Source: Asanoa hainanensis
GTDB taxonomy: Bacteria; Actinomycetota; Actinomycetes; Mycobacteriales; Micromonosporaceae
Direction: 5' to 3'
Assembly (NCBI RefSeq): GCF_900188485.1
Contig: NZ_FZPH01000013.1
Span: forward strand, 62,001 to 126,000
DNA length: 64,000 nt
Position numbers and translations under genes: made by a program. This document shows, in pieces, positions 228 to 41,721 of the stretch (position 1 is its first letter; every line of letters begins with the position of its first letter). The notes beneath the pieces were generated by a model. That model had not been told where the DNA came from and searched no databases. It saw only the letters and a list, made by a program, of their open reading frames with translations.

Positions 228-1106
228 ATGCTGACGGTGCGGCGGGCCGGGAACGACGACGACTACGCGCTCGTACGCCAGGTGCGGATGGCCGTCATCC
301 CTTACGAGCGGGCGCCCACCGTCGCCGAGATGCGGGCGTCGTTGACCCGCGACTCGCTCGTGCTCGTGGTCGAAGACGACGGCAAGCTGATCGGCAGCGG
401 TTCGGCCGACCACTCCAGCATCTCGGGCGCCGCGGTGGTGACGCCGCGGGTGCTGCCCGAGTTCCGCCGGCAGGGTGTCGGCACCCGGGTGCTGTCCCAC
501 CTCTGGGCGCACGCCGTCACGCTGGGCGTCGAGCACGTACTCGCCCACGCCGACGACGAGGGCTCCCGGGCGTTCGCCGAGCGGCACGGCTTCACCGAGG
601 TCGACCGCCAGGTCGAGCAGGTGCGCGCCGTCGGCGCCGAGCCGTCTCCCCCGCCCCGCACCGACGTCGAGGTGGTCACCGTCGCGCAGCGGCCGGACCT
701 GTGGGACCTCGCCTACGAGACGCTCGCCGCACAGGCGTTCGAGGACATGGCGCTGATCGCCCCGATGCACGCGTCCATCGACGAGTGGCGGACGAGCTGG
801 ATCGGCGACCCGACAGCGATGTTCCTGGCCGTCGAGGGCGGCGAGCCGGTCGCGCTGGCCGGCCTGATCGCCGACGCGGACAACCCGCACCGGGCCGAGA
901 ACGCGCTGACCGTGGTCCGCCGCGACTGGCGCGGTCGGGGCGTGGCGGCCTACCTCAAGCGGATCGCCCTCGCGCACGCCGCCGTCACCGGGATCACCGA
1001 GGTCTACACCTGGACCCAGCGGGGCAACGCCGACATGCGGCGGCTCAACGAGCACCTCGGCTACGCGACCCGGCTACAGAGCTTCACCATGCGCCGGCCG
1101 GTGTAG
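228..1106 (+). CDS. Tandem GNAT-family N-acetyltransferase
   Basis: 292 residues with two GNAT folds. The first spans about residues 1-140 and carries the acetyl-CoA loop region FRRQGVGTRVL near residue 85. The second spans about 150-290 and has WRGRGVAAYLK near residue 235, the R/Q-x-x-G-x-G/A motif. GNAT enzymes move an acetyl group from acetyl-CoA to an amine; the substrate cannot be told. Tandem GNAT proteins of this size include mycothiol synthase, but the diagnostic regions were not recognised, so it is left generic. ATG at 228 is the first in-frame start after the palindrome. The 3' end overlaps the converging MFS remnant by 33 bases. Confidence 0.8.
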   Translation: MLTVRRAGNDDDYALVRQVRMAVIPYERAPTVAEMRASLTRDSLVLVVEDDGKLIGSGSADHSSISGAAVVTPRVLPEFRRQGVGTRVLSHLWAHAVTLGVEHVLAHADDEGSRAFAERHGFTEVDRQVEQVRAVGAEPSPPPRTDVEVVTVAQRPDLWDLAYETLAAQAFEDMALIAPMHASIDEWRTSWIGDPTAMFLAVEGGEPVALAGLIADADNPHRAENALTVVRRDWRGRGVAAYLKRIALAHAAVTGITEVYTWTQRGNADMRRLNEHLGYATRLQSFTMRRPV

Positions 1107-40065: not shown

Positions 40066-40551
40066 TCACCCGCCGTAGTACTCGAGAAGCGTAGGAGGCG
40101 GCGGCAGCCAACGCTGCTGCTTGACCCGAACCTCCCACTGACTGCGCCGCCGCTGCCGATCCCGCTTACCCCGATCGCGATAAAACGTCTCAGGCGGCCG
40201 CGCGAGCCCGTAGATGTCGCCCCACCACTCCCCCGGCAACGGATCAAGAATCACGTCAAGATGAGCCGGAAACCGCCGCCGAGCGCCGTCGAGCGTGTTG
40301 TCACTGTCAGCCATAGGCCGCAAGCTCCGCCGCCCCTGATCGACCACCAAGAACCGATACCCACAAGCGGCCAGCAGCTTCTCCATCATGGCCAAACTAG
40401 GAGCCAACCCACCGGCCTCAATCCGGCTGATCGTCCCGTGACTAGCCCCACTCTTAGCCGCCAACTGCCGCTGACTGAGATCAGCCTGCCGACGAGCAGC
40501 CCGCAAAAGCCCCGAAACCGAAAGCGCCAGCCCACCCATAACGAAAAGCAT
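40066..40551 (-). CDS. XRE-family HTH regulator
   Basis: 161 residues from ATG 40551 (MLFVMGG). An N-terminal Cro/CI-type HTH (ARRQADLSQRQLAAKSGASHGTISRIE) occupies about residues 10-70. A 90-residue basic C-terminal part of unknown fold follows, rich in Arg and aromatic residues (GEWWGDIYGLARPPETFYRDRG). The frame stays open upstream into the palindrome at 40610, but that part looks non-coding. Its coding strand is rich in T-ending codons, opposite to hemB on the same strand. Confidence 0.75.
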   Translation of the reverse strand: MLFVMGGLALSVSGLLRAARRQADLSQRQLAAKSGASHGTISRIEAGGLAPSLAMMEKLLAACGYRFLVVDQGRRSLRPMADSDNTLDGARRRFPAHLDVILDPLPGEWWGDIYGLARPPETFYRDRGKRDRQRRRSQWEVRVKQQRWLPPPPTLLEYYGG

Positions 40552-40609: not shown

Positions 40610-40697
40610 TTTGCTCTGCACCCACATACGCACCGGCCCCCCGCGCGCACGCCGGCGCGCCCTGCGCGGGGTGGTGCGTATATGGGTGCAGAGCAAA
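40610..40697. repeat. Composite palindrome, copy B
   Basis: Left arm 40610-40634 and right arm 40673-40697 pair over 25 bases with one mismatch (outer end TTTGCTCTGC, inner end CGCACC). Inside, CCCCGCGC (40639-40646) and GCGCGGGG (40664-40671) pair perfectly. The outer 10 bases plus the flank GCAGAGCAAATGCGGT are the same as in copy A at 114-190. It lies between the start of the XRE gene and the end of hemB and could terminate hemB transcripts. It also marks the point where strand composition inverts. Confidence 0.85.
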
Positions 40698-40737: not shown

Positions 40738-41721
40738 TTAGTAGCGCGAGCGGAGGAGGGCTGCTGCTTCTGTGGCCCAGTACGTCAGGATGATTTGGGC
40801 TCCGGCTCGGCGGATTGAGGTCAGGGTTTCCAGCAGGGCTCGTTCGCGGTCTACCCAGCCGTTCGCGGCTGCTGCTTCGACCATCGCGTACTCGCCGGAG
40901 ATTTGGTACGCGGCTACCGGGATCGTTACCGCTGCTCGGACTGCGGCTATTACGTCCAGGTTTGTTAGGGCTGGTTTGACCATCACTATGTCCGCGCCCT
41001 CTTCGACGTCCAGCGCTACCTCGCGTAGGGCGTCTCGGAAGTTGGCTGGGTCCTGTTGGTACGTGCGGCGGTCGCCTTCCAAGGACGACTCCACCGCTTC
41101 GCGGAACGGGCCGTAGAACGCCGATGCGTACTTTGCCGCGTACGCCAGGATTCCTACGTCCTGGTAGCCCGCTGCGTCCAGGGACTGGCGGATTACGCCT
41201 ACCTGGCCGTCCATCATTCCGGACGGGCCCACCATGTGTACGCCGGCGTCTGCCTGGGCTACCGCCATCGTGGCGTAGGACTCCAGGGTCGCGTCGTTGT
41301 CTACTCGGCCCTGGGCGTCCAGGACTCCGCAGTGGCCGTGTGAGGTGAACTCGTCCAGGCAGAGGTCGCCCATGACTACTGTGGCGTCGCCTACCTCTGA
41401 GATCACGTCTCTGATCGCTACGTTGAGGATGCCGTTCTCGTCCAGGCCGCCTGAGCCTTCTGGGTCCTTCTCCAGCGGCACGCCGAAGAGCATGATGCCG
41501 CCTACGCCTGCTCGGACCGCTTCCGCCGCGGCTTTGCGTAGCGACTCTCTCGAGTGCTGCACTACGCCGGGCATCGCCGACAGGGGGCGTGGTTCGGTCA
41601 GGCCCTCTTTGACGAACATCGGGAGTACGAGCTCCGACGGCGCCAGTTTCGTCTCTTCTACCAGGCGGCGGACCGCCTGGTTGACGCGTAGGCGGCGCGG
41701 GCGGTCCGTGGGGAAAGCCAT
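40738..41721 (-). CDS. hemB: Delta-aminolevulinic acid dehydratase (porphobilinogen synthase)
   Basis: 327 residues from ATG 41721. It condenses two 5-aminolevulinate molecules to porphobilinogen. The Schiff-base lysines lie in [15 protein letters not shown] and [14 protein letters not shown]. The metal loop [14 protein letters not shown] keeps two Cys of the zinc type but has Asp where zinc enzymes have the middle Cys. ATG overlaps the hemD stop as TGATG, so translation is coupled. Codons ending in A are far more frequent than in hemD (7 of 20 in one stretch near 40830), part of the local strand anomaly. Confidence 0.95.

Follow-up and report, generated by a model that had tools for sequence, protein, structure and literature searches.

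A dispersed hairpin family of the Micromonosporaceae and its candidate helix-turn-helix partner

Two long palindromes lie 40 kb apart in a stretch of 64,000 nt of Asanoa hainanensis (GCF_900188485.1, NZ_FZPH01000013.1, positions 62,001–126,000), further called the window; the genome as a whole (8.64 Mb) is denoted G000. Their outer ends are common and their cores diverge. What kind of element has fixed ends and changing cores, and which gene, if any, serves it? The features that matter for this question are the following.

117–187, no strand: element copy 1, 71 bp, fixed arms at 117–126 and 178–187, stem extending out to 114–190
228–1106, plus strand: GNAT acetyltransferase gene (Pfam PF00583), the downstream neighbour of copy 1
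40066–40539, minus strand: gene of a helix-turn-helix (HTH) protein of 157 aa, candidate partner of the elements
40610–40697, no strand: element copy 2, 88 bp, fixed arms at 40610–40619 and 40688–40697
40738–41721, minus strand: hemB, delta-aminolevulinic acid dehydratase (Pfam PF00490), neighbour of copy 2

The palindromes and their family

Copy 1 begins 4 bp past a stop codon (TAG, 110–112) and ends 40 bp before the GNAT gene. For copy 2, the distance is 40 bp to the end of hemB on one side and 70 bp to the start codon of the HTH gene, which it precedes, on the other. The intergenic position ascribed to both copies in a sequence-only reading is borne out by these coordinates.

At no more than one mismatch, TTTGCTCTGC has four matches in the window, the four arms and none besides, with 1.55 expected. 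Since 8 of 100 shuffled windows also reach four matches, the arm count by itself is weak evidence for the palindromes. Folding is strong evidence for both of them: the z-scores on the two strands are −7.1 and −6.3 for copy 1 and −7.8 and −9.7 for copy 2, and for each strand none of 200 shuffles was as good. The proposed pair of palindromes with common ends is confirmed by this folding and by 15 exact paired-arm matches in G000, the reversed control giving zero. The common ends stand as far as the 10-bp arms are concerned, but the TGCGGT beyond the right arm, also counted as common, is not a family feature, as among 16 distinct copies of the genome it is found in copies 1 and 2 only. Similarly, the cores, described as unrelated, do diverge, but both copies retain a CGCA/TGCG inner stem. 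The tip of copy 2 is 22 bp longer than that of its 66-bp counterpart at this site in the closest relative (G003). A scan of the window and ten loci with Rfam gave no match at the gathering score; the sub-threshold matches near copy 2 are nearly all microRNA hairpins.

When one mismatch per arm is allowed, G000 has 26 paired copies in the 30 stretches examined, plus partial copies. Matches with 2–3 mismatches were at the control level; we used those with 0–1, plus some rows with two mismatches that pair with such a match. Genome counts require exact 10-bp arms with 30–60 bp between them and hence are lower bounds: exact copies occur in all six Asanoa genomes, 9–15 in each, and in 148 of 354 Micromonosporaceae genomes, from 15 of 44 genera. 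With 15 exact copies at home and this spread, the case of just two copies and none in relatives is excluded.

The family is almost confined to the Micromonosporaceae. A class-wide sample of 394 genomes contains three that match, namely G000, one further family member, and an incomplete MAG whose internal repeats are built differently. Among the 80 matches listed, out of at least 120, Micromonospora is the most common genus, accompanied by Asanoa, Actinoplanes, Rhizocola and Rugosimonospora, while those from outside the family are Actinoallomurus and a few MAGs. None of the plasmid records covers 80% of copy 2. Viral contigs as carriers were rejected: the four that match the pattern have other interiors and a GC content of 38–54%. 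A variant arrangement is seen at L316 in the incomplete MAG of the class-wide sample (G427), which is outside the family, where two half-hairpins stand in tandem between the same arms and the internal structure differs.

The typical element is mostly 66–67 bp long and consists of 10-bp arms, TTTGCTCTGC and GCAGAGCAAA, that enclose an inner stem of variable but paired sequence; the fixity of the arms is in part a product of the search pattern, in which exact arms were required. The length is 66 bp in 53 of 69 Asanoa copies and 67 bp in 70 of 118 copies from the named loci. Positions 11–14 and 20–26 vary, yet they pair within each copy. For the 70 copies of 67 bp, 94.4% of the stem cells are paired (83.3% after shuffling), and the stem contains 165 double changes (62 after shuffling). 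Positions 15–19 are mostly paired in Asanoa; in the named-locus set their pairing is poor (0.47–0.59), and hence an internal loop seems to be kept there. The bases directly outside the arms pair better within a copy than across copies.

Gain, loss and overwriting of copies

The neighbourhoods of 30 sites in G000 were compared with 49 stretches of five relatives, which hold 52 of the 60 exact copies in these relatives. Many elements lie between the same genes in different species, with the surrounding spacer diverged. In G003, 11 of the 30 sites share the element, nine have no element with both flanks aligned, and four have diverged; of the other six, three are ambiguous, two have no match and one is outside the query. 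L216 was placed against G003 by one flank only. The site of copy 1 is occupied in G000, G001 and G002 and was apparently lost in G003, where an apparent remnant is seen. The spacer from hemB to the HTH gene, where copy 2 sits, holds an element in at least six loci of the named collection as well, five of them from Micromonospora; in two of these six the element is 1.3–1.9 kb from hemB.

Two copies are private to G000. The insertion at L214 is absent in all five relatives, and a target-site duplication is not clearly visible. At L234 the arm is absent in five relatives, four of them aligned; the element is flanked by a GCGG direct repeat, of which the empty sites give no confirmation. At another site (L210 in G000, L275 in G003) the core orientations are opposite, as judged by eye, as if the core had flipped where it stands or had given way to one in reverse orientation.

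Eleven of 180 classified copies are intragenic. In L217, present in five of six species, and L232 the reading frames are open through the element, the length differing by 84 and 69 bp, respectively, from the empty G003 allele. The frame is likewise open at L225 and its G003 ortholog. In G001 the L232 site (L331) has an intragenic element with a short tandem run of half-elements in front of it, the repeats beginning CCTTGCTCTGCACCC; the array is apparently a minisatellite grown from one arm.

The mean identity of inner arms is 0.83 for different sites within one species (439 pairs), 0.77 for the same site in different species (36 pairs), and 0.73 when both site and species differ (1871 pairs). 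In distant genomes, orthologous copies compare with other copies as 0.58 to 0.61 (G000–G001) and 0.76 to 0.79 (G000–G002), and orthologs there have no clear edge in similarity; copies of one species are closer to one another than such distant orthologs are. In the closest pair, G000–G003, the orthologous copies are more alike than the others, 0.91 versus 0.82, and thus overwriting is not constant. Five copies at unrelated sites of G000 are 0–2 nt apart, and the identity stops 0–7 bp past the arms. The site of one of these five, L219, carries other core types in G002 and G005. Near-identical cores at unrelated sites, together with the core switch at L219, demonstrate that cores are overwritten in place.

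Copies thus arise at new sites, vanish from others, and are replaced in situ by other copies of the same genome, and their pairing is kept throughout. Given the private insertions, losses, in-frame intragenic copies and overwriting, the family is both mobile and subject to concerted evolution, retaining its structure and homogenising itself. The suggestion that fixed ends and diverging but paired cores reflect selection on structure or mobility holds, as copy-specific pairing, insertion, loss and overwriting are all observed.

Gene contexts were counted with our own GC-based caller, which also served for the gap and neighbour-gene counts, and with orthologous copies taken separately. Convergent gaps hold 66 of 169 elements and make up 156 of 985 gaps, an enrichment (p 6e-11); for divergent gaps the figures are 22 of 169 and 222 of 985, a depletion (p 0.004). 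This convergent preference is what one would expect if the elements served as bidirectional terminators or 3'-end hairpins and were retained for this function, recombination homogenising them, with the HTH gene no more than a frequent neighbour. The L220 site agrees with such a role, as there four relatives have other hairpins in place of the G000 element (read by eye, the fifth relative being ambiguous). However, separate strong hairpins are still found in 39–54% of the element-bearing convergent gaps, depending on the cut-off. Selection on RNA would make G-T pairs exceed A-C pairs, and in co-directional contexts no such wobble bias is present (26 G-T, 29 A-C); in convergent contexts G-T exceeds A-C, 33 to 10, despite the arbitrary orientation there. 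Moreover, a terminator role leaves both the intragenic copies and the co-occurrence with the HTH gene, described below, without an account, and we consider it very unlikely as the explanation of the family.

Substitution of elements for terminators was considered separately. At a score of at least 28, other strong hairpins are present in 39% of 54 element gaps versus 53% of 104. The candidate was rejected: other hairpins are somewhat rarer in the element gaps, but these gaps are longer and 39% is not few.

L319 (G004) and L332 (G002) at the L220 site, and L326 (G002), are other bidirectional hairpins built on GGAACGGTCCGTTCC-like repeats. Such hairpins fill spacers where relatives have different hairpins, and possibly form another repeat family.

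The HTH gene downstream of hemB

The HTH protein has an XRE-type helix-turn-helix at approximately residues 11–62, followed by a conserved C-terminal module without known family. The structure prediction is confident for the former and without confidence for the latter. Known families match the helix-turn-helix alone, and nothing points to a catalytic activity. Two residues, E104 and E117, do not vary among 47 family members, and most of 15 paralogs have no acidic residue at these positions; D108 is likewise constant in the family members, with glutamate in its place in seven paralogs; the alignment around E136 is poor. The paralogs (L423–L438) join an XRE helix-turn-helix and the same module to a GNAT domain and occur also in genomes without exact elements; 15 of 16 such stretches were read, and GNAT was confirmed by Pfam in the one tested.

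At the hemB loci of 30 genomes, an HTH gene is downstream in nine of 17 element-bearing genomes and in none of 13 element-free ones, and in six of these nine an element is located between hemB and that gene. A profile search in 354 genomes produced a match at 1e-20 in 147, of which 130 are above 100 bits and 17 have weaker paralogs only; the single strong match in G000 is the window gene. Element and HTH gene occur together in 123 genomes, the element alone in 25, the HTH gene alone in seven, and neither in 199 (p 7e-60 by the Fisher test, which ignores the tree). Outside Micromonospora the respective numbers are 21, 6, 6 and 161. The genus-stratified odds ratio, which adjusts by genus only, is 57, and 10.8 (p 0.003) without Micromonospora. 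Six of the 17 paralog-only genomes have elements. Two of the genomes counted as having the HTH gene alone (G084 and G140) contain an upstream element of another form, missed by the exact pattern. On the other side, G082 with 16 copies and G239 and G340 with 11 each have no strong HTH match. The genomes of 5.1–5.6 Mb within genus g23, eight in number (G148, G164, G179, G204, G209, G259, G292, G297), all have neither an exact element nor a strong HTH match.

Fifty loci were picked by the protein, 30 being the best matches and 20 our own choice, element-free genomes among them; the C-terminal motif is present in 47. An element is upstream of the HTH gene in 38 of these 47 loci and downstream in none, and two further loci, in G245 and G010, show a degenerate copy. 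In 33 of the 47 the HTH gene has hemB within 1.5 kb, and ten of the other 14 have an upstream element. In plasmids and phages no homolog of the window protein was found at 1e-8.

Hence the HTH gene is almost confined to element-bearing genomes and mostly has an element directly upstream. As the co-occurrence is near-constant and the gene is placed beside copy 2, the HTH protein is the likely partner of the elements. The same two facts add weight to the earlier suggestions of a regulator site and a chromosome-organising site, which were made with no mention of the HTH gene.

We tentatively prefer the explanation in which a small mobile REP-like hairpin, represented by the palindromes, and the HTH protein of 40066–40539 together make up a two-part system. 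The protein would recognise the fixed 10-bp arm in the hairpin or cruciform that an extruded palindrome forms, and would promote copying of the element, onto other copies by conversion-like overwriting and, more rarely, into new sites. The HTH gene itself would be controlled by the copy in front of it. Copies would persist mostly between convergent genes, where the hairpin may be least harmful or may act as a terminator. Several observations go against this two-part system: the 25 element-bearing genomes without a strong HTH match, some with many copies; the restriction of the linked element to the upstream side, as with an operator; the paralogs joining the same module to GNAT, which suit a regulator; the C-terminal module, with neither a recognised family nor a confident model nor an indicated catalytic activity; and the G000–G003 orthologs, which show that overwriting is not constant.

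The alternative is an autoregulated HTH protein whose sites are the dispersed elements, organising the chromosome or insulating convergent genes, with spread and homogenisation coming from general recombination and selection and not from the HTH protein. It is a possible, if more doubtful, explanation, and it follows closely after the two-part system because the linked element is upstream only and the one domain that can be recognised is of a regulatory kind. Tens of dispersed sites with one HTH gene, the regulator-like HTH-module-GNAT paralogs, and the fact that site positions can be kept across genera all agree with it. However, duplex operators do not need a covarying hairpin of nearly fixed length, and copies of the element are gained, lost, overwritten, and in some cases located inside genes.

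The elements might also be moved by another enzyme, the HTH gene merely having an element in its promoter and being inherited along. The 25 element-only genomes and the lack of a recognised catalytic domain in the HTH protein fit this, but the HTH gene is rare without elements (the seven genomes given by the exact pattern include G084 and G140, which actually hold one), and the association extends to HTH genes away from hemB. Among the loci compared, no neighbour gene recurs beside elements once orthologous sites, the hemB/HTH site among them, are set aside, and no transposase-like gene recurs among those adjoining elements. The Y1_Tnp domain does not track the elements, being found in 6 of 27 genomes with and 7 of 32 without them. 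We regard another enzyme as improbable.

Returning to the two-part system, we read it as REP-like, with a partner protein of a new kind that, as we infer, binds and mobilises the hairpins. It could even represent a new form of DNA mobility, although we think this unlikely: the XRE helix-turn-helix with its C-terminal module, alone or with host recombination, would act on extruded palindromes without a Y1, DDE or tyrosine-recombinase transposase, so that hairpins home to and overwrite fixed sites and occasionally insert elsewhere, and its own gene would be hairpin-controlled. The hairpin family thereby acquires a concrete candidate partner gene, usually single-copy and amenable to deletion or purification, and among the 354 genomes some have the pair and others do not. 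With its fixed positions, paired stems and genome-wide overwriting, the family is a natural test bed for palindrome copying. If the partner proves architectural, it would define, for antibiotic-producing actinomycetes, a new chromosome system based on dispersed sites.

Comparison with known systems

A literature search, with subscription papers largely outside it, found no description of this hairpin family and its partner. In integron attC sites a paired outer stem is followed by an unpaired central part, a second stem and a variable tip, and the structure is kept while the sequence changes. The element has the same plan of stem, loop, stem and tip, with structure kept over sequence. An integron origin was rejected: the TIGR02249 integrase is over the cut-off in none of 59 genomes, where only weaker tyrosine-recombinase matches occur, and no cassette arrays were seen. 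SbcD was rejected as the determinant of element presence, since it is over the cut-off in all 59. MatP/matS, Noc and SlmA combine tens of palindromic sites with one small DNA-binding protein, the sites being short duplex palindromes. The Asanoa system resembles them in having tens of palindromic sites and one small putative DNA-binding protein; unlike it, their sites have no covarying 66-bp hairpin.

The palindromic elements of Rickettsia are described as about 150 bp long and often intragenic; they are similar in that some copies are in-frame inside genes, whereas the Asanoa-type element is about 66 bp long and mostly intergenic (PMC10969869). The CGTC-tagged REPs are described as REP-like palindromes without a known dedicated transposase; they share this lack with the Asanoa element and differ from it in sequence (PMC3733652). 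In our set, CGTC occurs near the feet of 29–32% of copies versus 19% of control flanks (69 and 118 copies), which is too few copies for CGTC to be a tag.

The sequence-only label of a REP- or MITE-like element is acceptable as an analogy, but two REP features, the GTAG tag and a tracking Y1 transposase, both fail. GTAG within 12 bp of the feet is found in 3–4% of copies, the same as in control flanks (3–4%; 69 and 118 copies). The RAYT/IS200 Y1 transposase (PF01797) was rejected as the partner: G000 has none, and several of the matches counted above are fragments. The REP-like enrichment at 3' ends and between convergent genes is present (66/169 versus 156/985). The family resembles REP/REPIN-RAYT systems in its dispersed palindromes, mostly at gene 3' ends, and in the linked dedicated partner gene; it differs in the longer hairpin, the fixed 10-bp arms, and an HTH partner with the element upstream only. 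Thus it falls outside REP/RAYT by the two features tested, though the system may work in a similar way.
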